Shown here: positions 3,280 to 32,056 of the stretch, in pieces
Layout: every line of letters starts with the position of its first letter
Position numbering within the stretch: the first letter of the stretch is position 1
Virus record (IMG/VR): IMGVR_UViG_3300027852_000125
Span: 1-32,056 of that record
Length of the DNA stretch: 32,056 bases
Direction: 5' to 3' (one strand)
Source: a virus
Program-made: the position numbers and the translations under genes
Notes under the pieces: generated by a model
The model's input: the letters and a program-made list of their open reading frames with translations, nothing else
What the model was told of the DNA's origin: nothing
Databases searched by the model: none

Positions 3280-4633
3280 CCCTGTATTACGTGATTTTTG
3301 GGAAACCCCTGCGCGTAATCGTGTTTTATATGGCGGGCGAGACAGTACAAAGTCGTGGGATGCGGCGGGTTTCGCTGTGTTCTTGGCGCAATCATGTAAA
3401 ATACGTGTATTGTGCACTCGCCAATTTCAAAACAAAATTAGTGAAAGTGTCTACACCCTTTTAAAAATTCAGATAGCCCGGTTTGGTCTTGAAGGTGAAT
3501 TTGACATAACTAAAAACACAATCACACACAAAATAACCGGGTCAGAGTTCATATTCTATGGTTTATGGCGTCATATTGATGAAATTAAATCACTAGAGGG
3601 TATTGATATACTTTGGATTGAAGAGGCTCACAACTTAACACATGATCAATGGAAAATATTAGAGCCAACAATTCGTAAAGATGGTTCACAAGTTTGGATT
3701 ATATTTAACCCGCGTTACGCAACAGATTTTGTTTATAAGCGATTTGTTTTAAAACCGCCACCTGATACGATTGTCAGAAAAATTAACTTTAATGAAAACC
3801 CTTTTCTTAGTGAAACGTCTAAACGTATTATTGCTAATGCGCGTGATGAAGATTATGAAGAGTTTGAGCATGTTTATTTAGGTGTACCACATGACGATGA
3901 TGAAGGTGTCATTATCAAACGTTCATGGATAAATAGCGCAATAGACGCACATAAAACAATTTATCCTGAAACCGGTGAATGGTTTGGTGAACGTGTTGTT
4001 GGTTTTGATGTTGCCGATGATGGACCGGATTTAAATTCGATGGCTAAAATGGATGGGTCAGTCCTTGTTGGTGTTGAAGAATGGCGGGGGGCAGAAGATC
4101 AAATTCATAAATCAGTTTATCGCGTGTTGAATGCAGCAAAAGCTTTCGACGCTAAAACAATCGGGTATGACAGTATTGGCGTTGGTGCTTTTGTTGGGTC
4201 GGCGTTAAATGAAAAGAAATGGCGTAAACATTATGAATTTGATGCAGGTGGTAAAGTCCACGATCCACTTCGTATTGCGCGTGGAACAAAACAGATAAAC
4301 AAGGATTATTATCTCAACATTAAAGCGCAAGCATGGTGGCATTTAGCTATGAGATTTTTAAATACACATTTAGCCGTGACCACTGGAAAACGTTTTGCTG
4401 CGCGGGATATGATCAGCCTTTCAAGTGATTGCGATAGTAAATTGCTAAATAAAACAATTGATGAGCTTGCCACACCTCGCCGAGATTTTGACAGTGCCGG
4501 GGCAAAAGTGAAAGTGGAAAGTAAGAAGGATTTGAAAAAACGCGAAATTAAATCGCCAAACAATGCTGATGCTGTTATTATTGCCACAAGTCGGAACATG
4601 ATGGCTAGACCAAAATTGAAGGATTGGATGTAA
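3221..4633 (+). CDS. terL: Terminase large subunit (Terminase_3-type ATPase-nuclease)
   Basis: The large terminase is the packaging motor and cuts the DNA. A variant Walker A lies at residues 37-46 (YGGRDSTKSW) and Walker B at 127-137 (EGIDILWIEEA). The RNase H-like nuclease domain shows its acidic residues at D263 (VVGFDVADD), D317 (TIGYDSIG) and the Asp of SPNNADAVI near the C-terminus. The length of 470 aa is normal for the family. The only in-frame upstream start is GTG at 3221, with AAGGGA about 14 bases upstream, inside the small subunit gene. The N-terminal stretch has the motif RGHNNPPP (residues 10-17). The C-terminus overlaps the portal start by one base. Confidence 0.95.
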   Translation: MTSITTLPPRGHNNPPPTLNPVLRDFWETPARNRVLYGGRDSTKSWDAAGFAVFLAQSCKIRVLCTRQFQNKISESVYTLLKIQIARFGLEGEFDITKNTITHKITGSEFIFYGLWRHIDEIKSLEGIDILWIEEAHNLTHDQWKILEPTIRKDGSQVWIIFNPRYATDFVYKRFVLKPPPDTIVRKINFNENPFLSETSKRIIANARDEDYEEFEHVYLGVPHDDDEGVIIKRSWINSAIDAHKTIYPETGEWFGERVVGFDVADDGPDLNSMAKMDGSVLVGVEEWRGAEDQIHKSVYRVLNAAKAFDAKTIGYDSIGVGAFVGSALNEKKWRKHYEFDAGGKVHDPLRIARGTKQINKDYYLNIKAQAWWHLAMRFLNTHLAVTTGKRFAARDMISLSSDCDSKLLNKTIDELATPRRDFDSAGAKVKVESKKDLKKREIKSPNNADAVIIATSRNMMARPKLKDWM

Positions 4634-6081
4634 TGGGTAACAATCAATTAGCGCCAATTGGGCATAACAAATCACCAGTTGCAACGGCTAATGATGGTTT
4701 AGTTAATGTACTATCTGGTTTAGGTACAGAAAAATCAAAACGAAATCATAACAGTTGGGATTATGGTTTGTTAAACAATTGGCAACAGTTGGACGCGGCT
4801 TATCAGACTAATTGGATTGCACGTCAAATTGTTGATGTACCCGCTGATGATATTACACGAGAGTGGCGACGTATTAAAGCTAGTGACGCGGAGGTTATCA
4901 ACGTTGAAGAGGATCGTTTAAAAGTTCAAGCGAGAGTTAAAGAGGCATTGAGATGGGCGCGATTATATGGTGGCGCTGGTATTCTTATGGTTACGGGTCA
5001 GGATTTTGAAAAACCGCTGCAAGTGGATCGAATTAAAAAGAATGATCTTAAAAAATTGATCGTATTTGATCGCTATGACATGAATGGTTCGGATATAAAC
5101 AATTATGATATTTTAGCGGATAATTATAATTCTCCCGGTTATTTCAGCATAGTATCAGGCGCACAACGAATACATTATAGCCATTTCGTTAAATTTTATG
5201 GGGATGCCTTGCCACGTAGACAAAAGGTTATGTTGCAAGGTTGGGGTGATAGTGTTTTACGTAAATGTATTGAAGATGTTGAAGATACGGTAGCCGCTAA
5301 AAACGGTATTGCAGAGTTAATGCAGGAAGCTAATGTTGATGTTATCACCCGCGAAGGGTTGGCAGAAGCTTTGTCAACCGATGGTGAAAAAGATGTCATC
5401 AATAGGTATGCCATGTTTTCGCAAATGAAATCAATCATCAATCTGGCTCTTTTAGATGCTGATGAACAGTTAAACAGGCACACTTTAAATTTGTCAGGTG
5501 TTGCACCAATTATTGAACAATTGATGACATGGGTTTCCGGCGCTTCCGGCATCCCTGTGACCAAATTGTTTGGCACAAGTGCGAAAGGTCTTAACGCTAC
5601 CGGCGAGGGTGATGAAAAGAATTATTACGATGAAATTCGGTCATTGCAGAAATCACAAGCTAACGAACCGTTGCGATATCTTGATGAAGTGCTTGTTAGA
5701 TCGGCAACGGGTGGGTTTCCTGATGATTATGATTATGAGTGGAACCCGTTAGCCAAGGAAAACCCACTTGACGCGTCTCAGGCCGCTTTATATAGGCAAC
5801 AAATGGATGCGGGCTATCTTGCTGATGGTGTCATTAGACCATCGCAAGTGATGCGAGAGTTACAAGCCGGTGAGTATTATCAATTTGACGATAAGCAAAT
5901 TGAAGAAACTGAAACCCTTGAAGATGAAAACATGTTTGAAGAAATGATTACAAATGATCCAGAAGAGTTAGAGGTCATGACCGAAAAAAATGAAGATTTC
6001 ATTGATCGGTATACAGCGTTTCATGATGCCGGGTTATCGCATGCGGACATCATGAAACGTCTCAATGTAATCACTGTTTAA
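4633..6081 (+). CDS. Portal protein (DUF1073 family)
   Basis: The portal forms the ring at the capsid vertex through which DNA passes. Diagnostic stretches are LNNWQQLDAAYQTNWIARQ with PADDITREWRRI near the N-terminus, RWARLYGGAGILM, WGDSVLRKC, and GLNATGEGDEKNYYDEI in the second half, all characteristic of DUF1073 portals. I chose ATG 4633, which overlaps the terminase stop as TAATG and has GAAGGA about ten bases upstream. An upstream TTG at 4624 sits directly on that Shine-Dalgarno and is less likely. The result is 482 aa. Residues 9-15 (IGHNKSP) echo the terminase N-terminus. DUF1073 is also the N-terminal label used for Acb1-like proteins; I see no reason to call this one anti-CBASS. Confidence 0.93.
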   Translation: MGNNQLAPIGHNKSPVATANDGLVNVLSGLGTEKSKRNHNSWDYGLLNNWQQLDAAYQTNWIARQIVDVPADDITREWRRIKASDAEVINVEEDRLKVQARVKEALRWARLYGGAGILMVTGQDFEKPLQVDRIKKNDLKKLIVFDRYDMNGSDINNYDILADNYNSPGYFSIVSGAQRIHYSHFVKFYGDALPRRQKVMLQGWGDSVLRKCIEDVEDTVAAKNGIAELMQEANVDVITREGLAEALSTDGEKDVINRYAMFSQMKSIINLALLDADEQLNRHTLNLSGVAPIIEQLMTWVSGASGIPVTKLFGTSAKGLNATGEGDEKNYYDEIRSLQKSQANEPLRYLDEVLVRSATGGFPDDYDYEWNPLAKENPLDASQAALYRQQMDAGYLADGVIRPSQVMRELQAGEYYQFDDKQIEETETLEDENMFEEMITNDPEELEVMTEKNEDFIDRYTAFHDAGLSHADIMKRLNVITV

Positions 6082-6200
6082 AGTGGTGTATTATAATTTG
6101 CTTGTATATAGGCCGCAATAAAACACGCGGCAACAATGGCAATAAGGATGGTTAGATCAGTCCAATTTTTACGACTGTACGATTTAATTATGTTCCACAT
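6078..6200 (-). CDS. Tiny single-pass membrane protein (40 aa)
   Basis: A 40-residue minus-strand ORF begins at ATG 6200 with AAAGGG about eight bases upstream. It starts MWNIIKSYSRKNW and continues with a hydrophobic helix, TILIAIVAACFIAAYI (residues 17-32), then a short polar tail. Positive charges before the helix suggest an N-in orientation. The stop overlaps the convergent portal stop by four bases. The good ribosome binding site and a membrane helix make this a real gene rather than chance, but its role is unknown. It is the last gene of the first leftward island. Confidence 0.6.
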   Translation of the reverse strand: MWNIIKSYSRKNWTDLTILIAIVAACFIAAYIQANYNTPL

Positions 6201-6239
6201 TTTTCAACCCTTTCTTGCTTGTCAATTCACTGTTCGCTA

Positions 6240-6434
6240 TCATGTTATATTACCTTTCCCGCGTCGGTGATAACCGCCAGACTGACCTTGTGGGATTTCG
6301 TATGTCTTACCGGTGATGCAATCTGCCAACACATGACCTTTATCGGTTGTGACGAATATGCTTAAAACAGTCACATTTTTTTCACCAAAATCAAATGAAA
6401 AACTACCGTCTTTATTCTGGTTAATATTAGTCAT
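6240..6434 (-). CDS. Small protein of unknown function (64 aa)
   Basis: The product starts MTNINQNKDGSFSFDFGEKN, a short beta-type segment, then VTVLSIFVTT and a basic Gly-rich end (GGYHRRGKGNIT). I do not recognise a family. It overlaps the upstream zinc-ribbon gene by 8 bp, so translation is probably coupled. Several genes of this island begin MTN, which hints at shared initiation context more than homology. Confidence 0.65.
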   Translation of the reverse strand: MTNINQNKDGSFSFDFGEKNVTVLSIFVTTDKGHVLADCITGKTYEIPQGQSGGYHRRGKGNIT

Positions 6435-6615
6435 GGTTAGTCAATCTACAAATTGCAACCGATTGACGTTCAACGGTGCATTCAATACCAACACCACACT
6501 GGGGGCATTCATCAATCAAATTCGGTTGAGTTATTGCGTCATTAATATCGAACATGCAAAGTGGGCATGTAAAACGATTATCCCAACCGGGGTTGCGTAA
6601 TTCTTTGTCAGTCAT
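6427..6615 (-). CDS. Small zinc-ribbon protein (62 aa)
   Basis: ATG 6615 has AGGG seven bases upstream. A GTG two codons earlier lies on that site and is less likely. The protein has two CxxC knuckles, FTCPLCMFDI and DECPQCGVGI, spaced about 20 residues apart, followed by a third Cys (IEC). This is the pattern of a minimal zinc ribbon, which in phages often binds nucleic acid or a host polymerase partner. Specific function is unknown. It overlaps the next gene by 8 bp. Confidence 0.68.
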   Translation of the reverse strand: MTDKELRNPGWDNRFTCPLCMFDINDAITQPNLIDECPQCGVGIECTVERQSVAICRLTNHD

Positions 6616-6640
6616 GGTCACACCCTTTTCAATGAGTTAG

Positions 6641-6680
6641 CACACGGACGCAATTATTGCGACATCATCACGTCCGTGTG
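6641..6680. repeat. 10 bp perfect inverted repeat, 20 nt loop
   Basis: CACACGGACG (6641-6650) is mirrored by CGTCCGTGTG (6671-6680). It lies between two leftward genes, downstream of the 6711-6986 gene. No T-run follows on either strand, so an mRNA stem that protects or processes the transcript, or a protein-binding site, is more likely than an intrinsic terminator. Confidence 0.8.
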
Positions 6681-6710
6681 AGACGGTTATTGTTGGTTAT
6701 TCGATGTATT

Positions 6711-6986
6711 TTAAGACACGCGCCAGCAGCGAGTTTCAAACTCTTTAGTCGGGTCGCCACTCACTGTGAATTTATAATCAAGTTTTCGACCAGCACTTGA
6801 TGCACTAGATGAAACCTGTTTACGAGGTTTATTAATGCCAAAACTTTCACCAACTTTCATCTTTTCAAAATTATAAAGACTTGATGATGTACGTTCGGGG
6901 AGTGGTACATTGCTGATAATTTCACCAATCAATTTTGGTGACTCCGTTGGTGTAGATGTTTTTACAGATGGTTTCTTATCACTCAT
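6711..6986 (-). CDS. Small phage protein, DUF7303-like
   Basis: ATG 6986 has a GAGG Shine-Dalgarno. The first ~35 residues are Ser/Thr/Pro-rich and disordered. The rest carries FEKMKVGESFGI, then a Ser/Ala-rich basic stretch and the ending KFTVSGDPTKEFETRCWRVS. The order 'F-xx-M-x-VG-x-SF', then 'R...KFTV...RvWRv' matches a small family that recurs as an unknown protein in many phages (I believe DUF7303). Function is unknown. It follows a long leader (6987-7124) with a palindrome, so it may begin a transcript. Confidence 0.72.
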   Translation of the reverse strand: MSDKKPSVKTSTPTESPKLIGEIISNVPLPERTSSSLYNFEKMKVGESFGINKPRKQVSSSASSAGRKLDYKFTVSGDPTKEFETRCWRVS

Positions 6987-7066
6987 TTTAGGTAGTCCTC
7001 TTTTAAGGTTGATAATAAATCGTCATTGTATCAAGGTTGACGATAACACCTTATTTCTTACATTAA

Positions 7067-7082
7067 TTGACCGTCACGTCAA
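7067..7082. promoter_or_regulatory. Palindromic site TTGAC-N6-GTCAA
   Basis: The sequence is TTGACCGTCACGTCAA. It lies in the 138 bp gap upstream of the leftward gene that begins at 6986. The same design appears at 9379-9394, 11372-11387 and (one mismatch) 11402-11417. Each half can read as a -35 hexamer. A half-site TTGACG is also at 7038. It looks like an operator for a dimeric regulator. Confidence 0.55.
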
Positions 7083-7124
7083 GTGTTAAATTTTAAGGAC
7101 ATAATTAATAGTAACATCAATTTT

Positions 7125-7286
7125 CTAACACATTTCAGGTTTAAAATTATCATCTTTGGTCACTAATTTATTTAGATCAATGTGTTTTGAATGACGATTA
7201 CCATGTGCGTCAACCCATGGGACAACCATTTGACTTGCGGTGAGATTTGTTGGTTCGGCTATCCATTTTGGTAATTCGTTAGTCAT
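7125..7286 (-). CDS. Small protein of unknown function (53 aa)
   Basis: The ORF begins at ATG 7286 with AAAAGG about eight bases upstream and ends at TAG 7125. The product starts MTNELPKWIAEPTNLTASQM and continues VVPWVDAHGNRHSKHIDLNKL. A single short beta-type patch with W-V-D-x-x-GN-x-H recurs in small phage proteins, but I cannot name a family. It fits between its neighbours without overlap and shares their strand and Shine-Dalgarno style. Confidence 0.6.
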   Translation of the reverse strand: MTNELPKWIAEPTNLTASQMVVPWVDAHGNRHSKHIDLNKLVTKDDNFKPEMC

Positions 7287-7321
7287 AATGTTAACCTTTT
7301 AACCTCTCGTTAAACTGTGTT

Positions 7322-7594
7322 TTATTTGTTTTTTTTTGGTGGTTTTTGCGGATGATATAATTTGTAACAAATAGTTGTTTGTTTCACTAAATCGTCAACA
7401 GGGTCAAGTTCAACTGTTATAAAATTGGATAAAACTTGATCATCAATATAAACTCTACAATTCCAAACACCATTTTTAAAATTGTATTCCGCAACACCTT
7501 TGACTACAAATTTATCGCTTATGCGATTAAATTCAACAGTGCGTGCCGCGCGGGTAGTGATAAATGGGTTTGACTTAGGTTTGTTAAACATCAT
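7322..7594 (-). CDS. Unknown basic small protein (90 aa)
   Basis: The product starts MMFNKPKSNPFITTRAART. A middle of alternating beta-type segments (KFVVKGVAEYNF, VWNCRVYIDD, NFITVELD) is followed by a Lys/Pro-rich tail (HPQKPPKKNK). There is no membrane segment or metal motif. The start ATGATG has AAAGGGTGAG upstream and overlaps the preceding gene's stop by four bases. No family is recognised. Confidence 0.65.
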   Translation of the reverse strand: MMFNKPKSNPFITTRAARTVEFNRISDKFVVKGVAEYNFKNGVWNCRVYIDDQVLSNFITVELDPVDDLVKQTTICYKLYHPQKPPKKNK

Positions 7595-7959
7595 CTCACC
7601 CTTTCAATTAAGAGTATTTCGTCAAACAGCTTGTCAAGTTTTTCAAATGACTCTGCATTTCTAACATTGGTTAAAAAACTTAAACGTTTAATAACTTTCT
7701 CTCTTTTAGCTATTAATCTTACTCGTGCTTGTTGAGAATTTTTCACTCTTAAACGCTCTTTTGAATATTGTACGGCGTGACTACCAAGAAAACTGTTTGC
7801 TGTACCATATTGACGATGATTACGATCTAACATAAATGAAGAGTTATTTGACAATTTAAACACTGATTTTTTAATTTCAATTACAGTGTAAGGTCCATAT
7901 AAGTAACCGCCAGAGTTTTCAATAAAATATTTATCATCAATTTTAATATTGTTAGTCAT
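7591..7959 (-). CDS. Unknown protein with basic helical C-terminus (122 aa)
   Basis: The N-terminal ~45 residues look beta-rich (KYFIENSGGYLYGPYTVIEIKK), followed by a basic middle (RNHRQYGTANS) and a charged helix with many Arg, Lys and Glu (ARVRLIAKREKVIKRL, then SFEKLDKLFDEILLIER). Basic first, acidic second suggests a protein- or nucleic-acid-binding helix pair. I do not recognise a family. The GAGG before ATG 7959 supports the start, and the 3' end overlaps the next gene by 4 bp. Confidence 0.65.
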   Translation of the reverse strand: MTNNIKIDDKYFIENSGGYLYGPYTVIEIKKSVFKLSNNSSFMLDRNHRQYGTANSFLGSHAVQYSKERLRVKNSQQARVRLIAKREKVIKRLSFLTNVRNAESFEKLDKLFDEILLIERVR

Positions 7960-8001
7960 TATCTTTTAGTCCTCTCATCATTTTAATAACTTTTTACTGT
8001 T

Positions 8002-8265
8002 TCATTGTGCGGTGTAAGTTCCAATATACTCAGCTTTATCAGGGATATTATCAACAACAACCCAACCACCTACATTAAACAAATTATTAGGAATTTTAAC
8101 AATTCTGGACATTTTCATAACACTGTTAAAGTCACACGAGTATAAAGTTTCGGTTTGATTATCGTGATCAATTAAACTGTAACCTAACACAATATTTTTG
8201 TGATACATATTAACCTTGTGTATTGACATTAAACGTTCATGGTCTTTTTTAAAAGTGTTGGTCAT
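8002..8265 (-). CDS. Unknown small protein (87 aa)
   Basis: I chose the internal ATG at 8265 (MTNTFKKDHERL), which has AAGGA about ten bases upstream. The longer start at 8289 has no Shine-Dalgarno and would lie about ten bases from the predicted transcription start. The fold looks mixed: a helical charged start, then short strands (KNIVLGYSLID, ETLYSCDFNSV, GGWVVVDNIP, AEYIGTYTAQ). It looks like a compact SH3-like beta barrel, but this is a guess. No family is assigned. Confidence 0.62.
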   Translation of the reverse strand: MTNTFKKDHERLMSIHKVNMYHKNIVLGYSLIDHDNQTETLYSCDFNSVMKMSRIVKIPNNLFNVGGWVVVDNIPDKAEYIGTYTAQ

Positions 8266-8304
8266 CGTGATAATTTCCTTGTGTTTCATTGTTTCGATGA
8301 CAAG

Positions 8305-8333
8305 AATATAATCACTAATGACAGTGGTGTCAA
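8305..8333 (-). promoter_or_regulatory. Leftward sigma70-type promoter
   Basis: On the minus strand, TTGACA (8333-8328) and TATATT (8310-8305) are separated by exactly 17 bases. All six -35 bases and five of six -10 bases match consensus. Transcription would start near 8298, a little before ATG 8265. Confidence 0.6.
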
Positions 8334-8341
8334 TAGGTGAT

Positions 8342-8578
8342 TTAACGTTTGTTGATTATAATGCCAAAATTGTTTTTAAAATGTTTGATAAAGGTTTGGT
8401 GAATTGTTTTTAATACGTTTGTTCTAGTATCTCGTGACCGCCGTTTCACGTGTATCACAGATATAAATTTGCGAACAGCAACGATAAAGTTGACATTCGC
8501 AAATGAATAGATAATTGTATGCGTATCAGTTTTAATAGTTATTGATCTATTAAAACTGTCAATGATATAATGTATCAA
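8342..8578 (-). CDS. Small paralogous protein, copy A (TTG start)
   Basis: The protein (78 aa) begins with TTG at 8578, reading MIHYIIDSFNRSITI. It shares MIHY-x-IDS, then SVIHV-x-RR and a C-terminal F-x-K-x-FKxxF with the gene at 9029-9259, so the two are paralogs. The DNA also matches: ACGTGTATCACAGA is present in both. Copy A uses a TTG start where copy B uses ATG. The stop of the upstream gene lies one base before the TTG, so translation may depend on coupling. Function is unknown. Confidence 0.65.
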   Translation of the reverse strand: MIHYIIDSFNRSITIKTDTHTIIYSFANVNFIVAVRKFISVIHVKRRSRDTRTNVLKTIHQTFIKHFKNNFGIIINKR

Positions 8579-8579
8579 A

Positions 8580-9035
8580 TTAAATTTTTACCCAACCCCT
8601 ATTGATTATTGTTTTTTCAGTTTCTACCATTTTAAATTTATCACCACACCAGTTACATGTGCGCCTATCTTCAGTTTGGTCAATTGTATATTGTTTACCT
8701 GAATATAAAAAATGCCCTTTATGATCAGGGTCAACAACACACATACCTATTTGTTCATAGTTTGACCAAAACCAATCTGTTATATTTGTTGACGTGTCAA
8801 ATCGTTCTTTAGATATTGGTCTAAGTGGGTTAACTGTATAACCGTAATAACCCCGAAAAATACTGATGATACTTTTGCAATAATATTCTTGGTCACGCAT
8901 GACACCGATGTGAATTGCACCCGATCTCGCACGCATTACAACAAGTTCTTTAATTGAGTGACCCCTTAACCATCTAAAAAATGATGCTGAATATTTTGGA
9001 TTTTTGTTTGGGTTAAACGTTGCTTTGATTAACAT
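8580..9035 (-). CDS. Unknown protein with one C-terminal CxxC (151 aa)
   Basis: The product starts MLIKATFNPNKNPKYSASFF and continues with FRWLRGHSIKELVVMRARSG and IHIGVMRDQEYYCKSI. Near the C-terminus it has RRTCNWCGDKFKMVE, a single CxxC that could be half of a zinc site. I do not recognise the family. It sits between the two paralogous genes, overlaps copy B by 7 bp, and has a GGGGAG upstream of ATG 9035. Confidence 0.65.
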   Translation of the reverse strand: MLIKATFNPNKNPKYSASFFRWLRGHSIKELVVMRARSGAIHIGVMRDQEYYCKSIISIFRGYYGYTVNPLRPISKERFDTSTNITDWFWSNYEQIGMCVVDPDHKGHFLYSGKQYTIDQTEDRRTCNWCGDKFKMVETEKTIINRGWVKI

Positions 9036-9259
9036 TGCTCTATAAACTCCCCTTTGAAATTCTTGTGAAAAATTTTATCAACATCATCAAGTAACGTTTC
9101 ATCGGGTGTACCTGCGCGACGTTGAACGTGTATCACAGACATAAATGAAAACGCTACTTCATCAAATTTGTCAGTAGTAAACAAGTATCGTTTAACTTTT
9201 CTGACGCGATTAAAAACTGTTATAATGTTATCATCGCTATCAATTTTATAATGTATCAT
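9029..9259 (-). CDS. Small paralogous protein, copy B (ATG start)
   Basis: This 76-residue protein reads MIHYKIDSDDNIITVF, with SVIHVQRRAG in the middle and FHKNFKGEF near the end. It is a paralog of the gene at 8342-8578. An AAGG lies about nine bases upstream of ATG 9259. It is the first gene of the leftward island, downstream of a probable promoter at 9367-9394. No known family is recognised; a small DNA- or protein-binding fold is possible, but nothing in the sequence shows it. Confidence 0.68.
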   Translation of the reverse strand: MIHYKIDSDDNIITVFNRVRKVKRYLFTTDKFDEVAFSFMSVIHVQRRAGTPDETLLDDVDKIFHKNFKGEFIEQC

Positions 9260-9350
9260 TTGTTTACAACCTTGTGTGTTTGATAAACCATAATTTTAAC
9301 CTTGAAATATTAAAATTGAATTAACCTACCCCTTGTGTTAATTTCGTGGC

Positions 9351-10247
9351 ATGATTAAACCACCTGATAATATACTTATTGACGGGCATGTCAATAAAAA
9401 AAAACCTAAAGGGGTTGAGCTACCCAAACAGGTCGGCATTAGGTTTAATGCGGCATTACAGCGTATGGTCAAAGCGATACGCAAGGACATCACGCAACAA
9501 GTCTTACCCATTGTGCGACAGTATGGGTCGGCATATGCTTTAGATGCCGCTCCTATACCGTTTAAAGATGGGTATGCTGACGATATAATCAAAGCTTTAC
9601 AATTAGTCATGACACGATGGTCATCAACATCATTTTTAGCAATTGTTAATCAATTGGCAGAAGATTTTGTAGTATCAGCGGATAAAGTAAATCTAAAAAA
9701 AATTCATAAAGATTTTGGGGTTGATATTTTTTCGGGTCAAGACGCTAATTTATCTGATTACATTGCATCAAGTATTTACGATAACGTTAGGTTAATAACT
9801 GACATAAAAGAAAAATATTTAACAGACATACAATCTACAATCATGACAAATGTTCGCGCGGGTAATCGCCCATCTGTCATTGCGAAAATGTTGACCAAAC
9901 AATATGGTGTCGCATCAAAACGTGCAAAGTTTATCGCTCGTGATCAGACTGCAAAAGTGAATGGTGATCTTTCTGCAAAACGACAAATTGCGGCGGGGTT
10001 TGAATACTTTCAATGGGTTGACAGTGGTGACAGGCGTGTACGTGATAGACATCATGAAATTGCAAACAAAGTAACTGAATACGGGAAGGGTGTTTATCGT
10101 TGGGATAATCTACCTTTATCTAATCAAGGTGTGCCAATTAAACCGGGTCAAGACTATCAATGTCGGTGTGTAGCACGTCCTGTAAGTAGGCGTGAAGTTG
10201 AAAAAAATGTTACAGAAGGTAAAACTAGACCCGGTGTCAAACGTTAA
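9351..10247 (+). CDS. Minor head protein, Mu gpF/SPP1 gp7 family
   Basis: A late head-morphogenesis protein. The diagnostic C-terminal motif is present: ARDQTAKVNGDLSAKRQ, then YFQWVDSGDRRVRDRHHEI, then PIKPGQDYQCRCVARPV. Relatives sit at the portal vertex and help DNA packaging or ejection. The N-terminal ~150 residues are mostly helical. The ATG at 9351 has no clear Shine-Dalgarno. A stop closes the frame 12 bases upstream, so no earlier start is possible. A palindrome-promoter lies inside codons 10-15. It stands alone on the plus strand between two minus-strand islands. Confidence 0.9.
   Translation: MIKPPDNILIDGHVNKKKPKGVELPKQVGIRFNAALQRMVKAIRKDITQQVLPIVRQYGSAYALDAAPIPFKDGYADDIIKALQLVMTRWSSTSFLAIVNQLAEDFVVSADKVNLKKIHKDFGVDIFSGQDANLSDYIASSIYDNVRLITDIKEKYLTDIQSTIMTNVRAGNRPSVIAKMLTKQYGVASKRAKFIARDQTAKVNGDLSAKRQIAAGFEYFQWVDSGDRRVRDRHHEIANKVTEYGKGVYRWDNLPLSNQGVPIKPGQDYQCRCVARPVSRREVEKNVTEGKTRPGVKR
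9367..9394 (-). promoter_or_regulatory. Leftward promoter overlapping TTGAC-N6-GTCAA palindrome
   Basis: The palindrome TTGACGGGCATGTCAA spans 9379-9394. On the minus strand its right half gives a -35 TTGACA (9394-9389). After 16 bases comes a -10 TATTAT (9372-9367). This would transcribe the leftward island beginning at 9259, with a leader of about 100 bases. It lies inside the start of the minor head gene. Confidence 0.45.
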
Positions 10248-10456
10248 ATTTTAAAAATTCGATTAAAATCTTGTTTCATCACCCTGAATACGGGGTATCC
10301 ATTTATTTCAGTGATGCTATCTAAATTTAACATTTCCATCATCGCCGTTGCTTGTTCCCACCCCATGTAAATTTCAAACATGCTTTTAGGATCGACTTCT
10401 CTAAGTTTACGTGTTACATTTAACATTTCAACAGCAAAAGATTTTGCATCAATCAT
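10244..10456 (-). CDS. Unknown small helical protein (70 aa)
   Basis: The product starts MIDAKSFAVEMLNVTRKL and ends GYPVFRVMKQDFNRIFKI. It looks mostly helical, with Met-rich stretches (MGWEQATAMMEMLNL). The stop overlaps the convergent minor-head stop by four bases and the start overlaps the preceding gene by four (ATGA). No clear Shine-Dalgarno precedes it, so it probably depends on coupling. No family is recognised. Confidence 0.6.
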   Translation of the reverse strand: MIDAKSFAVEMLNVTRKLREVDPKSMFEIYMGWEQATAMMEMLNLDSITEINGYPVFRVMKQDFNRIFKI

Positions 10457-10680
10457 TGTTTTGCAACGTGTAAATAATGATTACGGTTTACCGGTACAAC
10501 ATTGTGATGACGAAATTTTATAGCGTTATCAATAGCGTTATGGTAATCAGGGCTAATATAAATCACCATTTTAATATTGGCAGCATCTTGCATTTTAACC
10601 GTGTCACTAACCGCTCTATCAAGAGCATTGTCAAGAGCATTGTCAATTTGATTTCTCAAAGCGTGTTTATCAAGTGTCAT
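10453..10680 (-). CDS. Unknown small protein (75 aa)
   Basis: An AAGGAAG lies upstream of ATG 10680. The product begins MTLDKHALRNQIDNALDNALD, an amphipathic helix with an internal short repeat (IDNALDNALD), continues with NIKMVIYISPDYHNAI and ends HHNVVPVNRNHYLHVAKQ. Some features recall small phage proteins that contact DNA or polymerase, but nothing is diagnostic. It overlaps both neighbours. Confidence 0.62.
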   Translation of the reverse strand: MTLDKHALRNQIDNALDNALDRAVSDTVKMQDAANIKMVIYISPDYHNAIDNAIKFRHHNVVPVNRNHYLHVAKQ

Positions 10681-10912
10681 AACGCTTCCTTGTGTCTAAC
10701 ATAGGTTCGGATGCAACTAATTTTGGTGCTGGTGGGTCACTCTCGCCAACCCCAATTTGTTGAGCAGTCAACATTAATGTCATTGCGAATAATTTCATTT
10801 TATCGTTGTTAACGCCAGTTCCGCGCAATACCCTTGTGGATAAAATGAAAAGATCGGTGGCGGACAAATTTGAAATATAATTGACCAATATATTTAAATC
10901 AGTATCCCTCAT
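10670..10912 (-). CDS. Small helical protein, likely distant paralog of next gene upstream (80 aa)
   Basis: The product begins MRDTDLNILVNYISNLSATDL. A helix pair (LSATDLFILSTRV, then DKMKLFAMTLMLTAQQIG) aligns by eye with the neighbouring protein at 10909-11157 (MSYADMLNFASRV, then ERTIASAIASAAITYMG). The C-terminus is a Pro-rich tail. No named family. It starts by ATGA overlap with the preceding gene. Confidence 0.6.
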   Translation of the reverse strand: MRDTDLNILVNYISNLSATDLFILSTRVLRGTGVNNDKMKLFAMTLMLTAQQIGVGESDPPAPKLVASEPMLDTRKRYDT

Positions 10913-11157
10913 ATGTTATTACCAAGAACAGGTGAGAAAAGCGCTGGTGGTGCACATGCGACCTTAACTGCTTTGTTAAGGTGTTTACCTTCTCGCTCGT
11001 GACCCATGTAGGTGATAGCCGCAGATGCAATTGCAGATGCAATTGTGCGCTCATCAAGTTCTGTTAGTTTGGTGGCTACTCTTGATGCAAAATTTAACAT
11101 GTCAGCATATGACATTTCTTCAAGGCATTCCATCGCACATTTATAAGTGTCACCCAT
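10909..11157 (-). CDS. Small helical protein, first gene of second leftward island (82 aa)
   Basis: The product begins MGDTYKCAMECLEEMSYADML. Two helices follow, with an Ala-rich second (ASAIASAAITYMG), then a short basic tail. The helix pair resembles the gene at 10670-10912. An AAGAAG lies just upstream of ATG 11157. A hairpin plus T-run (11179-11218) sits about 20 bases before the start codon, so expression may be attenuated. Function unknown. Confidence 0.62.
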   Translation of the reverse strand: MGDTYKCAMECLEEMSYADMLNFASRVATKLTELDERTIASAIASAAITYMGHEREGKHLNKAVKVACAPPALFSPVLGNNI

Positions 11158-11178
11158 CTTCTTTGATCCTTACATTTT

Positions 11179-11218
11179 AAAAACCCCACCTGCACGGTTA
11201 AGGGGTGCACAGGCGGGG
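11179..11218 (-). terminator. Leftward hairpin with T-run (possible attenuator)
   Basis: On the minus strand, a G/C-rich imperfect stem (11218 down to 11184) pairs CCCCGCC with GGTGGGG and TGCAC with GTGCA, with a two-base bulge and a nine-base loop. Five T residues follow (11183-11179). This is an intrinsic terminator form, placed between the likely leftward promoter and the first gene of the island. Confidence 0.55.
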
Positions 11219-11371
11219 CAACTTCGCTAGATAGTTAATATGATTAAAGTGAGTTAGACCATGATGAACCTGCCTTTCGTTAGAGGATCACCGATTAGGT
11301 TTTAGTGCGTCATCTATCTAATCGACTTTTCGTTCTATTCTCTATAGTGAGAAAACAACTTTAAAACGCTG

Positions 11372-11417
11372 TTGACGATCATGTCAACAACTTTTTTTTT
11401 ATTGACGGTCACGTCAG
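11372..11417. promoter_or_regulatory. Two TTGAC-N6-GTCAA-type palindromes, 30 bp apart
   Basis: TTGACGATCATGTCAA lies at 11372-11387 and TTGACGGTCACGTCAG (one mismatch) at 11402-11417. A T-run (11392-11400) separates them. They repeat the design found at 7067-7082 and 9379-9394. Tandem placement between divergent transcripts is what one expects of a cooperative operator. Confidence 0.6.
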
Positions 11418-11484: not shown

Positions 11485-12627
11485 ATGAAAATTACCCTTT
11501 TAGATCGTAAAAGCTACGCAGTATCAAGTGCGCGGGTTTATACAGATGAGGGGTTTTTACGTGTTCCCGGCCATGTTGCACGAACCGGTGTGCAAGAATA
11601 TCTTGCAGGTGAATTGGGTTTAACAGGTCGCAATCCTAACGATGTCATTAGAGTTAATCGTGACGCTAGTGAAGTTTTTTCACAAGAAAGTTTAGCGTCA
11701 TATGCCGGTGCAGATGTCACTATTCAACACCCAACGGAAATGGTTGACATTAACACTCACAAGATGGTTTCGGTTGGCACTGTTGCTGGTCCGGGTATTC
11801 GCGATGGTGAGCGTGTCAAAATTGATATTATCATTAAAAATAAAGACGGTATTGAAGCTGTTGAAAAGGGGCTTGTTGAGCTTAGTTCAGGTTATTCTGC
11901 CGTCTATGATGATAATGTGCCGAAAGGTGCAGATTACGAATTTGACCAGCGCAACATTAAAATAAACCATGTTGCTCTGGTGGATACTGCGCGTGCGGGT
12001 GCGTTGGCGCGTTTATTTGATCATAAAATGAAGGTTAATGAAATGTTCAAAATTACACTTGATAGTGGGCGAGTGGTTGAAGTTGCTGACGCTGCAATTG
12101 CCGCCTTGATTGAAGATAGCTTGAAAACAATGAATGAAAAACTTGTCGCTGCAACTGCAACGGCAGAAAAAGCAACGGCTGCAAAAGATGCGGCAATTGC
12201 TGCTTTAGATGAAGAAAAAAAATTATCTTCTGATGAAGCGATTGCAAATCGTCTATCTACTTTGACAGCAGTGAAAGATGGTGCTCGTATTATTGCAGGT
12301 GATGATTTCACAACTGATAGCCTTGAGGTTGCTGAAATTCAACGTGTCGCACTTTTGACAGCCAACCCCAATAGAGATTGGAAAGACAAAAGTGATATTT
12401 ATATTCAAGCTGCCTTTGATATGGAACTTGAAAAAAAGGAAAATGAAGACGACGATGATGAAGATGAAGGTGATAAAAAAGGCGATAAAAAAGGTAAAAA
12501 AACTGCTGAACAACTCGCCAAAATTGCCAAAGATGCCGCTCACAATTCAAACGACACAGTTTCGGCACACGCAACTTTTACAGCCAACCTAAATGATAGC
12601 TGGAAATCAACAGTAGGAGTAAAATAA
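11485..12627 (+). CDS. Prohead protease-scaffold fusion (DUF2213)
   Basis: The 380-residue protein joins a DUF2213-type prohead protease to a scaffold. The N-terminal ~180 residues run from KITLLDRKSYAVSSARVYT to VTIQHPTEMV (H82), VELSSGYSAVY (S134/S135) and NHVALVDTARAG (H162), the expected catalytic neighbourhood. From about residue 187 the protein changes to an Ala/Glu/Lys-rich coiled coil (TATAEKATAAKDAAIAAL) with an acidic-basic stretch near the C-terminus (ENEDDDDEDEGDKKGDKKGK), typical of scaffolds. A second start inside the gene is described separately. It precedes the cement and capsid genes, as in other phages. The Shine-Dalgarno of ATG 11485 is weak. Confidence 0.9.
   Translation: MKITLLDRKSYAVSSARVYTDEGFLRVPGHVARTGVQEYLAGELGLTGRNPNDVIRVNRDASEVFSQESLASYAGADVTIQHPTEMVDINTHKMVSVGTVAGPGIRDGERVKIDIIIKNKDGIEAVEKGLVELSSGYSAVYDDNVPKGADYEFDQRNIKINHVALVDTARAGALARLFDHKMKVNEMFKITLDSGRVVEVADAAIAALIEDSLKTMNEKLVAATATAEKATAAKDAAIAALDEEKKLSSDEAIANRLSTLTAVKDGARIIAGDDFTTDSLEVAEIQRVALLTANPNRDWKDKSDIYIQAAFDMELEKKENEDDDDEDEGDKKGDKKGKKTAEQLAKIAKDAAHNSNDTVSAHATFTANLNDSWKSTVGVK
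12043..12627 (+). CDS. Possible internally initiated scaffold protein
   Basis: In frame with the protease gene, ATG 12043 has AAGG exactly eight bases upstream. The peptide that follows, MFKITLDSGRVVEVADAA, reads like a natural N-terminus and marks the start of the coiled-coil half. If used, it would give a 194-residue scaffold alone, comparable to the lambda C/Nu3 arrangement. This is inference from the start signal and domain boundary. Confidence 0.4.
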   Translation: MFKITLDSGRVVEVADAAIAALIEDSLKTMNEKLVAATATAEKATAAKDAAIAALDEEKKLSSDEAIANRLSTLTAVKDGARIIAGDDFTTDSLEVAEIQRVALLTANPNRDWKDKSDIYIQAAFDMELEKKENEDDDDEDEGDKKGDKKGKKTAEQLAKIAKDAAHNSNDTVSAHATFTANLNDSWKSTVGVK

Positions 12628-14217: not shown

Positions 14218-14655
14218 ATGAAACTTTTAAATAAATCTGCCCGATTAATTTCCATACCCGGCGAAACAACTGATAAAAAAGCGCCTGATGGTCGCATCAT
14301 ATCAAAAACCCCGTTGATGGTTTATGATTTAATGCCAGCCGCGAAATCACCAACTGATGTGCCTGACAAATTTTGTAAAAATATTTTCGTTGAAGAATTG
14401 ATTAAATCTAACGACATTGAAGTTGTTGGTCAACCGAGCGGTGAAGATGATGAAACAGCGCTTGAAAAAATGTCAATCGCCAATTTAAAAGTGTATGCTG
14501 AAAATATTGGTGTTGATTTTAAATCTCGTTGGTCAAAATCAAAAATTATTGCTGCAATTGAAGATGTTACACACGGTGATGACCCTGATGATGATGGTGA
14601 TGGTGATGGTGATGGTGATGGTGATGGTGATGGTGATGGTGATGGTGATGAATGA
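14218..14655 (+). CDS. SAP/HeH-domain protein with Asp-Gly tail
   Basis: This 145-residue protein begins MKLLNKSARLISIPGETTDK, in a region expected to encode head-tail connector proteins. Residues about 82-115 (ALEKMSIANLKVYAENIGVD..WSKSKIIAAIED) look like a SAP/HeH helix-extended-helix, a small DNA- or protein-binding domain common in phage neck-region proteins. The last ~22 residues are nine Asp-Gly pairs, encoded by a hexanucleotide repeat, and one Asp-Glu. AAGGA lies upstream of ATG 14218. Its precise role is unknown. Confidence 0.78.
   Translation: MKLLNKSARLISIPGETTDKKAPDGRIISKTPLMVYDLMPAAKSPTDVPDKFCKNIFVEELIKSNDIEVVGQPSGEDDETALEKMSIANLKVYAENIGVDFKSRWSKSKIIAAIEDVTHGDDPDDDGDGDGDGDGDGDGDGDGDE
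14593..14646 (+). repeat. Hexanucleotide repeat (GATGGT)9
   Basis: Nine perfect copies encode Asp-Gly repeats at the C-terminus of the SAP/HeH protein. The unit reads GGTGAT in another register, a Shine-Dalgarno-like string, and lies directly before the start of the next gene. Length change by slippage keeps the reading frame. Confidence 0.97.
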
Positions 14656-16508: not shown

Positions 16509-17651
16509 ATGAGTTATAATGTTGATAATATTATTCCAATCAATGTGCGAATTGTACCGCAAGGATTGAGTTTTGCTAATTTTGCCGAGGCAGTTTTATT
16601 TGCGCCAGAGGCGGAATTGCCAGTAGGGTTTGACCCGGATACGTATAGAGAATATACAACATTAACAGCTTTGGCAGTTGATTTTGCAACCACTACTGAA
16701 ACATACAAATCTATTAATCGGTGGTTAGGTGGCATTCCCGCAACTGGTAAAGTCAAAGTGTACGGTGTTGATGCAGCCGATGCCGATTGGGCAACAACAT
16801 TAAACAAAGCTCGCAATGTGTTTTGGTGGTATTGGTCATTTTTCACTGCGCCGGTTTACGCTGTTGAAGCGGAAGTTTTAGAAATCGCCTCGTGGTCAAA
16901 CTCACAGGAAACATTTTTTATGAATTGTCAAACAGGTGCCAATGCAACCGCAATTCGTGATCAAAATGATGTAACTGATATTGCAACACAATTGACTACA
17001 TTTGGTTATCGCCTTGTTGCGACGTTTACACATGCAACCGACCCTTATGCTGGAATTGCATTAGCGAAATGGTTTGCTAGTGTTAATTATTCGGCTGTAC
17101 GATCAACAATTACAGGTGAGTTTAAAAAACTATCTGGCGTTGCAGCTGAGGATTTGACCGATAGTGAATATGGGTCAATGACTAAAGTGACAAAAAAGGC
17201 AATGTTTTATAGTGTTGTTGAATTGCAAGGTTCGGTTGATAACGGTCGTGTTTTAAATACATGGTCGCATTCGACTTATGGTGAATTTGTTGATGATGTT
17301 GTCAATCTTTCGGCGTTTGTTAATAATCTAAAAGTTGCACTTTATAACACGTTAGCAAATTCAACAACAAAGGTTGGTCAAGACCCTGTTGGTCAATCAT
17401 TGTTAATTGGTTCGGCAAAAGCTATTTGTGAGCGTTACATTACAAATGCGTATCTTGGTCCACGCAACTATACTGATCCTGATGATGGGATTGAAAAATA
17501 TACAAACGGTTATGAAATTTTAACAAAACCAGAGGATATTTTAAACATCACTGATGAGGATCGCGACAACCGTTTGTCAGCACCAATGCGTATTAGGGTT
17601 TTTCGTAAAGGTGCAATTCATAAGTCAATTGTTGACATTGATGTATATTAA
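16509..17651 (+). CDS. Tail sheath protein (DUF3383)
   Basis: The sheath forms the contractile outer layer of the tail, so it defines this phage as a myovirus. The N-terminal SYNVDNIIPINVRIVPQGLS, the central WFASVNYSAVRSTITGEFK and a C-terminal half with GVAAEDLTDSEYGSMT and PMRIRVFRKGAIHKSIVDID are typical of DUF3383 sheath proteins. Length of 380 aa is within family range. ATG 16509 has AAGGGG upstream. It is followed by the tube gene. Confidence 0.92.
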   Translation: MSYNVDNIIPINVRIVPQGLSFANFAEAVLFAPEAELPVGFDPDTYREYTTLTALAVDFATTTETYKSINRWLGGIPATGKVKVYGVDAADADWATTLNKARNVFWWYWSFFTAPVYAVEAEVLEIASWSNSQETFFMNCQTGANATAIRDQNDVTDIATQLTTFGYRLVATFTHATDPYAGIALAKWFASVNYSAVRSTITGEFKKLSGVAAEDLTDSEYGSMTKVTKKAMFYSVVELQGSVDNGRVLNTWSHSTYGEFVDDVVNLSAFVNNLKVALYNTLANSTTKVGQDPVGQSLLIGSAKAICERYITNAYLGPRNYTDPDDGIEKYTNGYEILTKPEDILNITDEDRDNRLSAPMRIRVFRKGAIHKSIVDIDVY

Positions 17652-29273: not shown

Positions 29274-30233
29274 TTACCCTTGCACCGGTGTTAATCCGGC
29301 AATCTGTGTGTCAGTCCAGCCACCCGCGCGTAATTGCGAAAGACTATAAACCATCCCATTGTAGTCATAACGTGGATCAACAGCGGCGGGCGTTGTGGGT
29401 GCCTCAATTGCTGGTGCAACTGGTGGTGTAGCCATTTGACCCGGAACAGGCGCAACAAGATCGTGTGCCGGAACAGGTGCAACTGGTGGTGTAGCCATTT
29501 GACCCGGAACAGGTGCAACTGGTGTTGTAGCCATTTGACCCGGAACAGGTGCAACTGGTGTTGTAGCCATTTGCATGCCACCAACCGGGGTTGCACTTGC
29601 ACCGGGTGGAAGCGCCCCACCAAATCCAACTTCACTGGCGTCAACACCACCTTGAATTTCAGGACCATAACCAGAATGAGCAATGATTTTTAAATTTAAA
29701 TAAATACCGGGTTTTTGCAATGAATTGTTAGATGTCATTTCACCAAAAACTTGAACATAATGACCGCGTTTAATCACTTGTTCATGTAGTGTTTTTGAAC
29801 CATTAGCGTCAGTATATGTTGGCGGATAGCCATTTGAAAAATGAATAATCCAATGACCCGGCCAACCTTCACGGTCACAAGGTTTGTTGCCTTTTGTGTT
29901 TGGTATTTGGCTGTCGCCATCATCAATCTTACAAGCAACCTCGCGACCTTGATACATATACCCTGTAGCAGGGTCAAAACATGATGGAAAACTTGTTCGC
30001 GCTAGAGCCATAATTTTTTGACCCCATGTGGTTTCTGACCAGTGTTGTTCCGATCCTTTTGGTATACCTAAGCCAATATAATATTCCTCGCGAGGTTGCC
30101 CTGCATTTGGACCATGTTTAACAACTAACGGGTTGTTGTCAGCGTCTTTTGTTCGCGCCTTGTAAGCATCACCCGATAAATAACGACCTACAGGGGTTAA
30201 GATTACATTTGGGCTATCAGTGACAGTTGTCAT
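29274..30233 (-). CDS. Probable ssDNA-binding protein with repeat linker
   Basis: The 319-residue protein starts MTTVTDSPNVILTPVGRYLS. An N-terminal domain with PREEYYIGLGIPKGS, WIIHFSNGYPP, GHYVQVFGEMT and GIYLNLKIIAHSG looks like an OB-type fold as in phage ssDNA-binding proteins. A Gly-Ala-Pro linker with repeated QMAT(T/P)PVAPVPG follows, and the end has YSLSQLRAGGWTDTQIAGL, a small docking-like motif. A GAGAG lies before ATG 30233. It sits between nuclease and polymerase genes, which fits replication. Confidence 0.7.
   Translation of the reverse strand: MTTVTDSPNVILTPVGRYLSGDAYKARTKDADNNPLVVKHGPNAGQPREEYYIGLGIPKGSEQHWSETTWGQKIMALARTSFPSCFDPATGYMYQGREVACKIDDGDSQIPNTKGNKPCDREGWPGHWIIHFSNGYPPTYTDANGSKTLHEQVIKRGHYVQVFGEMTSNNSLQKPGIYLNLKIIAHSGYGPEIQGGVDASEVGFGGALPPGASATPVGGMQMATTPVAPVPGQMATTPVAPVPGQMATPPVAPVPAHDLVAPVPGQMATPPVAPAIEAPTTPAAVDPRYDYNGMVYSLSQLRAGGWTDTQIAGLTPVQG
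29413..29573 (-). repeat. 36 bp in-frame tandem repeat in ssDNA-binding protein gene
   Basis: Units lie at 29413-29448, 29476-29511, 29512-29547 and 29548-29573 (partial). A 27 bp piece lies between the first two. The unit encodes a 12-residue Pro-Val-Ala-rich peptide, QMAT(T/P)PVAPVPG, in a disordered linker. Confidence 0.93.
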
Positions 30234-31430: not shown

Positions 31431-32056
31431 TGTTAGTTTCAGCATCGCGTTTGATGTCTGCCCAAACTTCAGGAATTTTAGCCGCACCCGCTGCGGCTAA
31501 AATAGGCATACCACTAATGCCATGCTGCAATAAAATAGTGTTAACTCTATCTTGCGTTGTTCGTTTTGAAGCACACAAGCCAGCAATTAATGGCATAATT
31601 TCTGCAAATGTTGTCGGTGCAGGTGCAGGTGCGTCGGGTGCAGGTGCAGGTGCGTCGGGTGCAGGTGCAGGTGCGTCGGGTGCAACACCAAACCCAATTG
31701 TAGAAGTATCAATCGTCGGTGTGGACGCATTTGTCATGACTGTTTTTAATTCTACCTTGACATCATCAACAAACTTCGCAAAACCGTCTTTTGTTTGATC
31801 AGGTGGACATTTTTTTAATCGCCAAGTGCCTTTTGCGGTGGTAGTTTTACCTTTAGAGTGAATGCGACTATCCCACGGGATATTTTCACTATCAAGAACA
31901 ACACCAGCATTGACCGCCGCTGCAACGCCTTGTGCGTCAGGTGTAGGTGTCGGTGCCGCTGCAACGCCTTGTGCGTCGGGTGTAGGTGTCGGTGCCGCTG
32001 CAACGCCTTGTGCGTCGGGTGTAGGTGTCGGTGCCGCTGCAACGCCTTGTGCGTCG
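31423..32056 (-). CDS. Repeat-rich protein with PWDSRIH module, 5' end outside window
   Basis: The open minus-strand frame enters from the right edge and stops at TAA 31423. Reading in, it has three and a part copies of DAQGVAAAPTPTP, then VVLDSENIPWDSRIHSKGK with KGTWRLKKC, then helical sequence, three copies of DAPAPAP, and a helical end (FAEIMPLIAGLCASKRTT). The PWDSRIH stretch is very close to the polymerase C-terminus. The ATG at 31737 is internal and not the real start. The two linkers suggest a modular scaffold. No catalytic motif is seen. Confidence 0.75.
   Translation of the reverse strand, partial: DAQGVAAAPTPTPDAQGVAAAPTPTPDAQGVAAAPTPTPDAQGVAAAVNAGVVLDSENIPWDSRIHSKGKTTTAKGTWRLKKCPPDQTKDGFAKFVDDVKVELKTVMTNASTPTIDTSTIGFGVAPDAPAPAPDAPAPAPDAPAPAPTTFAEIMPLIAGLCASKRTTQDRVNTILLQHGISGMPILAAAGAAKIPEVWADIKRDAETNNG
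31619..31681 (-). repeat. 21 bp in-frame tandem repeat, three copies (DAPAPAP)
   Basis: Copies at 31619-31639, 31640-31660 and 31661-31681 are identical. They encode a Pro-Ala-Asp linker after the PWDSRIH module. Confidence 0.95.
31939..32055 (-). repeat. 39 bp in-frame tandem repeat, three full copies (DAQGVAAAPTPTP)
   Basis: Units are 32055-32017, 32016-31978 and 31977-31939, followed by a partial fourth. They differ by one base. The array may continue beyond the right edge. Confidence 0.93.

Follow-up and report, generated by a model that had tools for sequence, protein, structure and literature searches.

Introduction

The phiPLPE-like dwarf myoviruses have circularly permuted genomes of ~43–50 kb and are recognized by homologous portal, minor head protein (MHP), protease, decoration and major capsid protein (MCP) genes in a conserved order, together with contractile-tail genes. 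Here we describe two islands of small minus-strand genes, at 6078–9259 and 10244–11157, that lie within the rightward head operon of IMG/VR virus record IMGVR_UViG_3300027852_000125, a linear record of 32,056 bp (the window) that is a fragment of a larger genome. The window has the gene set of the phiPLPE-like group, its sheath and baseplate being judged by gene order and lengths, which match CP-T1. The same terminase–portal–MHP–protease–MCP order is found in CP-T1, vB_VchM-138, PEAT2, MSW-3 and the Jedunavirus phages Geezett and JD001, and these phages have the same two antisense islands with the same palindrome at the island heads. They differ in that they encode no detectable homologs of the window island proteins, and the window MHP is only 41–57% identical to the relatives aligned.

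Three described systems are comparable. Morons are independently expressed genes inserted in phage operons, such as the 'ant moron' of P22-like phages (PMC2629481). The window islands resemble morons in that they are inserted between morphogenetic genes that abut in relatives, vary in content and have no apparent morphogenetic role, and they may also have promoters of their own; unlike morons, they are antisense and multi-gene, occupy two or three fixed places, share an operator with what appears to be an early regulon, and in the window show no terminator. Anti-CRISPR operons controlled by Aca proteins carry inverted repeats in the core promoter, through which strong early transcription that disturbs later genes is shut down (PMC9410906). 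The islands of the window would follow a similar logic, with strong early accessory transcription that has to be repressed for the sake of later genes. The window likewise has an inverted repeat inside the predicted core promoter, and its relatives encode a small putative autoregulator with a helix-turn-helix (HTH) domain, but this candidate is TetR-like, has its gene far away in an early operon and would act in trans on more than one island. We identified no Acr in the islands and no HTH gene in the same operon. Because the regulator would be unlinked and act on several islands, we do not claim membership in the Aca family. In archaeal viruses, regulons defined by early regulatory sequences have been used to find anti-defence genes (PMC11065993). 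There, as here, early accessory genes at scattered places have a regulatory motif in common, whereas the present motif is a palindromic operator, in bacterial myoviruses, at antisense cassettes within the head operon. Among the relatives themselves, apparent class II promoters for host CRP in the Vibrio phages 1.286.O, BUCT_X002 and K435 have a 16-bp palindrome at the same island-head position, and differ from the window in the operator, probably in relying on a host activator, and in belonging to another branch.

We propose, with a probability of roughly two in three, that the islands are autonomous, co-regulated early antisense accessory cassettes that are shut off before late transcription by an autoregulated, unusually short TetR-like protein (mini-TetR).

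Two antisense islands split the head genes

The late genes of the window run rightward in the order TerS, TerL, portal, MHP, protease, decoration, MCP and presumed tail genes, and at the right end a B-type DNA polymerase, SSB and an exonuclease, named by comparison with CP-T1 and PEAT2, run leftward. Island 1 (6078–9259, minus strand; 11 small open reading frames, ORFs) lies between the portal gene (4624–6081, plus strand; Phage_portal_3, PF06381, E 3.6e-97; phrog_146) and the MHP gene (9351–10247, plus strand; Mu F-like, Phage_Mu_F, PF04233, E 7.5e-16), and is the longest portal–MHP island among the relatives compared. Island 2 (10244–11157, minus strand; four ORFs) lies between MHP and the head maturation protease gene (11485–12627, plus strand; DUF2213). 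The original prediction for this DNA, that minus-strand genes separate portal, MHP and protease, is borne out by the ORF calls and family matches. Its figure of six or more kilobases was too large: the antisense stretches sum to 4.1 kb inside a 5.4-kb portal-to-protease interval.

The 15 small minus-strand ORFs tile the islands far beyond chance. Minus-strand ORF coverage is 0.88 in island 1 and 1.00 in island 2, compared with shuffle means of 0.16 and 0.19 and maxima of 0.44 and 0.79. The aggregate GC content at the three codon positions (0.41/0.35/0.29) follows the order seen in known genes, and is ambiguous for the individual short ORFs 6078, 8002, 8342 and 10244 (named by first coordinate); ORF 8342 has the support of a paralog, 9029. 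Parts of island 1 have a GC content of 31–33% versus 39%, and island 2 is not divergent. At both convergent junctions the gene ends overlap by exactly 4 bp, as had been noted before, with TTAA common to the two stops. This overlap is ordinary, since at least eight other junctions in relatives show it.

A 16-bp palindrome heads both islands

Repeat analysis of the window yielded an imperfect palindrome that we resolved as TTGAC-N6-GTCAA, 16 bp in length. With at most one mismatch, it occurs six times in the window, compared with 0.67 copies expected. Five copies, at 7067, 8318, 9379, 11372 and 11402, are in the islands and all lie upstream of minus-strand genes; the sixth is at 17290. The island copies had been missed by the original prediction.

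At the head of island 1, inside the 5' end of the MHP gene, a predicted minus-strand promoter (9367–9394) carries the palindrome TTGACATGCCCGTCAA (9379–9394), in which TTGACA serves as the -35 and is followed 16 nt downstream by the -10 TATTAT. A predicted internal promoter and operator (8305–8333, minus strand) precedes the 8002 gene, with the palindrome TTGACACCACTGTCAT (8318–8333) and the -10 TATATT at 17 nt. In both promoters the TTGACA half is the -35, and 11 of the 12 consensus bases are matched. A further internal operator, TTGACGTGACGGTCAA (7067–7082, minus strand), precedes the 6711 gene. The predicted promoter and operator of island 2 (11358–11387, minus strand) contains TTGACATGATCGTCAA (11372–11387) and a weak -10, TAAAGT, at 18 nt; a second, tandem operator, CTGACGTGACCGTCAA (11402–11417, minus strand), is 30 nt from the first, or about three helical turns. 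Promoter and terminator totals in the window are not above those in shuffles, and our argument rests on the shared palindrome instead.

The MHP N-terminus (9351–9430) extends past that of most relatives and encloses the promoter and operator of island 1; the true start codon may lie further in. The ~200-nt leader of island 2 contains, between the promoter and the first gene, a 13-bp GC-rich hairpin followed by UUUUU (11177–11219, minus strand; no Rfam match), which could be attenuator-like or could terminate a short leader RNA.

The palindrome marks occupied junctions and early operons of relatives

We gathered 107 related loci by MHP and protease searches and called their genes with a simple caller written for this analysis; a single-protein IMG/VR scan with the portal found nothing. 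The portal–MHP and MHP–protease junctions of these relatives are either tight, mostly <300 bp with no minus-strand genes and in many cases in Pseudomonas prophages, or are filled almost only with small minus-strand genes. We counted junction heads on representatives at 90% MHP identity, with dinucleotide shuffles as background. The palindrome is present at 41 of 55 occupied heads, compared with ~0.4 in shuffles and 2 of 58 tight junctions, and about no heads have it with other spacer lengths.

The site is not confined to the islands. A blind discovery that scanned all palindromes with 5-bp arms placed either this palindrome or the TGACG-N4-CGTCA core of it in one of the top two ranks for the window and for most of the island-bearing relatives tested, namely CP-T1, PEAT2, Geezett, MSW-3, LAPP1 and two further loci (L057 and L068), and the core ranked first in AAM22. 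Complete relatives have 13–21 sites per genome at one mismatch, compared with means of 2–4 for other spacers. In the structural region, sites stand before most antisense blocks; elsewhere they stand before the divergent early promoter region, the SSB, exonuclease and helicase operons, and a TetR-like gene; the genomes in which we found them before early operons and the TetR-like gene are CP-T1, Geezett, LAPP1, MSW-3, AAM22 and PEAT2. Minus-strand lysis blocks, which are late by nature and provide an internal control read from the annotations, have no site. ZF40, which has the same virion genes with a lambda-like early module, has no mini-TetR, no motif and tight junctions.

Alternatively, the islands could be ordinary morons: unrelated cassettes inserted singly with their own promoters, in which the palindrome is merely the context of a strong -35 (TTGACA). 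The islands sit between genes that abut in relatives, their content is almost all different from one relative to the next, GC is low in parts of island 1, and relatives have terminators. We nevertheless consider this explanation unlikely. The motif is a 16-bp palindrome with a spacer of exactly 6 bp and, beyond the -35, a GTCA that hardly varies, and it occurs in two geometries: over the -35 and spacer, usually with the start codon 45–60 nt on, or directly after the TATA box (-10), with the start codon ~20 nt on. In the many heads of the second kind it follows the -10 and hence provides no -35. Both are classical repressor positions, which argues for an operator and not a mere -35. Furthermore, the palindrome also heads early operons and the TetR-like gene, and cassettes inserted independently would not all have carried in one common operator.

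A literature search found no report of this motif for the phage group among open-access papers, which is a weak argument for its novelty. The original prediction had called this the likeliest place for an undescribed system; the arrangement is already present in deposited genomes, and the common operator appears to be new.

A mini-TetR is the candidate regulator

The TetR-like gene of relatives encodes 92–114 residues, with few short helices after the HTH domain. CP-T1 gp14 matches TetR_N (PF00440, E 3.7e-9), and three divergent homologs do not. A TetR profile from the PDB matches mini-TetR over residues 9–70 (E 4.6e-8), and its structural model (predicted local distance difference test, pLDDT, 92) gives a Foldseek probability of 1.0, though the E value is only 0.01. 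The protein has neither the ~200 residues nor the C-terminal ligand-binding domain of the TetR family, and these comparisons indicate that it is TetR-like in the HTH half only.

Six relatives have the palindrome ahead of the mini-TetR gene. The promoter of this gene is TTGACC-N17-CATACT in PEAT2, Geezett and LAPP1, with the palindrome over the -35 and spacer; AAM22 and MSW-3 have close variants, and in CP-T1 one arm is altered. That the promoter of the gene itself carries the palindrome gives the picture of an autoregulated repressor, and mini-TetR would probably bind this site.

In the mechanism we propose, the rightward head operon has two permissive junctions, and these are occupied by leftward-transcribed cassettes. 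Each cassette would have a sigma70-type promoter of its own, placed shortly before the next late gene or within its first part, and would be transcribed from there leftward as far as the end of the late gene that precedes it. As the promoters share one 16-bp operator, the islands would form a single regulon with the early replication operons. Host RNA polymerase would read the islands at once after infection; the early-encoded, autoregulated mini-TetR would then fill the operators and silence the islands, so that they would not collide with the rightward transcription of the late phase. The early timing in this scheme is suggested by the shared operators, and the sign of control would probably be repression.

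Alternatively, the palindrome regulon could be a switch for immunity or pseudolysogeny, with mini-TetR as a master repressor that keeps every early promoter, and the islands too, silent in a carrier state. The dispersal of sites over early promoters would suit such a switch, as would the behavior of CP-T1, which is that of a temperate phage with no known lysogeny genes (PMC3391216). Three points make it quite improbable in our view: the mini-TetR gene is inside the early replication operon with a promoter that carries the site, a Cro-like position; it is also present in the lytic Jedunavirus phages and PEAT2; and the window fragment has no integration genes. A third possibility, that the antisense orientation is itself the function and the small proteins are secondary, seems very improbable. 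Leftward transcripts would then delay head-gene expression or set its dose, either as antisense RNA or as roadblocks; convergent ends do abut or overlap late genes, and the terminator-like hairpin in the island-2 leader could make a short RNA. Against it, the islands are tiled by ORFs whose base phase is coding-like, tight junctions occur in many relatives whose heads presumably assemble as usual, and in most cases a leftward island stops at the preceding late gene or only slightly within it.

Several observations weigh against early cassettes controlled by mini-TetR. The window stops short of the genome part that holds the regulator gene in relatives, so we infer the presence of mini-TetR in the window phage from them. 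The operator at 7067 has no convincing -10, and a terminator search at 6081 and 10247, where the islands of the window end, found none. The palindrome is missing from 14 of the 55 occupied heads (the lineages L008, L066, L016 and L085, and some J2 and J0 heads), and control by mini-TetR is therefore not universal. Close relatives are not independent, and with 4–5 independent pairs on the tree a sign test is not significant. Finally, a pairing of mini-TetR with the operator did not hold in phages with a different virion: PY6, AeroV_348 and 367.14 show no enrichment of the motif and SppYZU01 shows little, so the regulator and operator are not always together in recognisable form.

In SppYZU01, PY6 and AeroV_348 (L117, L118 and L119), the early module is the same (helicase, TetR-like gene, DNA polymerase), but it is joined to another head module, one free of islands. 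By gene content, this layout is a modular exchange between early and virion genes.

Position is usually the only basis for sorting small phage genes without a known function. The conserved operator would add a sequence-level marker of an early accessory set in a large phage group, which includes Klebsiella phages considered for therapy, and would reduce the question of island function to a definite list of genes under common control. The cassette model proposes a way for a phage to retain leftward accessory genes within a late operon read rightward while avoiding persistent transcriptional conflict. It also offers mini-TetR as a regulator candidate, open to testing, in phages with unexplained temperate behavior such as CP-T1.

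The Vibrio 1.286.O branch has a different operator

Islands are present in the Vibrio 1.286.O branch, with neither a mini-TetR match nor the TTGAC motif. The top palindrome of this branch is TGTGA-N6-TCACA, the CRP consensus, with 10 exact copies compared with 0.06 expected. In 1.286.O, BUCT_X002 and K435 it lies ~53–58 nt before the first minus-strand gene and 15–20 nt before portal or MHP; in 1.286.O (L113) sites are at 2641, 5553, 7518, 20724 and 25128, and such sites are also present in L122 and L123. At each of the 12 sites tested a -10-like hexamer follows at exactly 21 nt, although the three phages are mutually related and the 12 sites are not independent. With this spacing the palindrome is centred near -41.5, which is where CRP is established to act as a class II activator. 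The sites are apparent class II CRP promoters, and action of host CRP, or of a phage protein of the same specificity, would fit.

A broader reading, which we offer as a tentative one, is that of a genome-wide, two-direction regulon in which one operator and a mini-TetR without a ligand domain would govern both the early operons and the late-module islands, and in which lineages would have swapped the regulator wholesale, with mini-TetR repression in most lineages and activation by host cAMP-CRP at -41.5 in the 1.286.O branch. If this is true, accessory expression would be tied either to phage timing (mini-TetR) or to host nutrition (CRP), the operator would be a search key for unknown accessory and counter-defence genes of phages, and mini-TetR could explain the temperate behavior of CP-T1 without known lysogeny genes.

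The islands have a fixed place and changing content

Islands occur in the named phages CP-T1, PEAT2, Geezett, MSW-3, LAPP1 and 1.286.O, and in AAM22 at MHP–protease only; the protease–decoration–MCP junctions are nearly always tight. The island position is a lineage trait of the phiPLPE-like dwarf myoviruses (CP-T1, PEAT2, Jedunavirus and MSW-3). On a tree of portal plus MHP, occupancy of the portal–MHP junction needs nine changes, five of them forced by well-supported branches, and that of the MHP–protease junction needs four. The sister loci L036 and L025 have upstream flanks that are 94% identical, and L036 (9053–9188) is without the island present in L025 (4713–5719). L036 keeps the -10 and the operator with one arm mutated (GCCAA for GTCAA), which makes deletion of the island likely; the mutated arm in this scar suggests relaxed selection after gene loss.

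Among the island genes of representative relatives, 92 of 154 are singletons. The largest family, with 23 genes, is DUF6378/phrog_17775-like and is found in both islands. Named families are NinX, DUF3310, exonuclease, kinase and GIY-YIG, and the matching island of CP-T1 has a Lar-like restriction-alleviation gene. A plus-strand terminator after portal is present at 11 of 20 occupied junctions and at none of 28 tight junctions.

The original prediction had taken the islands for early accessory genes, possibly directed against host defences. This turnover supports the accessory part well, and the early part has indirect support from the operator shared with early operons of relatives. A role against host defences is possible at most; the named island families are few and mostly of DNA or nucleotide metabolism, plus the Lar-like gene of CP-T1. 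The relatives share the place and not the genes, and none was found with the same genes in the same order. On balance the earlier observation is partly confirmed and its interpretation partly supported.

Proteins encoded by the window islands

The island 1 ORFs, all on the minus strand, are 6078–6200, 6240–6434, 6427–6621, 6711–6986, 7125–7286, 7322–7594, 7591–7959, 8002–8289, 8342–8578, 8580–9035 and 9029–9259; those of island 2, also on the minus strand, are 10244–10456, 10453–10680, 10670–10912 and 10909–11157. The 6427–6621 product (64 residues) had been called a zinc ribbon, and it does have the cysteines (CxxC...CxxC), with a Pfam zinc ribbon match that is only sub-threshold (E 4e-4). 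Of two suggested paralog pairs, one is real: 8342–8578 and 9029–9259, the latter being the first gene of island 1, are 36% identical over 72 residues. The other, 10670 and 10909, was rejected when no alignment was obtained. The 91-residue protein of 6711–6986 has weak similarity to DUF7303 and phrog_10287.

We searched the island proteins against PHROGs, Pfam and NCBIfam, and the 40-residue 6078 ORF against PHROGs only; no HTH family was matched in these scans. A tblastn search with all 15 island proteins joined against 50,697 phage records gave no match at E 0.1, and IMG/VR scans with the 8580, 7591 and 10909 proteins found no relatives. A phmmer search against six-frame ORFs of the 107 related loci gave one weak match only, between the 6711 protein and a minus-strand ORF upstream of portal in L082, its sole relative in that set. 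By these comparisons the window island proteins are without a clear homolog in any collection searched. A single-sequence fold of the 8580 protein was uninformative (pLDDT 41), and a PADLOC anti-defence scan gave scattered weak matches only. For the small proteins, varied roles in host takeover, anti-restriction and nucleotide metabolism would be the likeliest.

Between the 6711 and 6427 genes there is a long hairpin (6641–6680; CACACGGACG...CGTCCGTGTG) without a T run, with a z score of -2.9 and no equally stable structure in 200 shuffles.

Other features of the window

Rfam and tRNA scans of the window found nothing. A Cys/His-rich minus-strand protein of ~220 residues (1653–2324) adjoins TerS in many relatives, with matches in SppYZU01 and in seven of the gathered loci (L003, L019, L020, L022, L026, L036 and L068), and pieces of it recur elsewhere, in PEAT2 (31862–32194) and L051. 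It belongs to no Pfam family and is possibly homing-endonuclease-like or associated with DNA ends. Long tandem repeats with units of 72, 6, 36, 21 and 39 bp occur in coding sequence at 1–199, 14586–14650, 29468–29573, 31616–31684 and 31916–32056, and include the tails of SSB and of the gene adjoining the exonuclease. Similar long repeats are present in CP-T1, 138 and phiPLPE, where they were once proposed to be attachment sites (PMC3391216).

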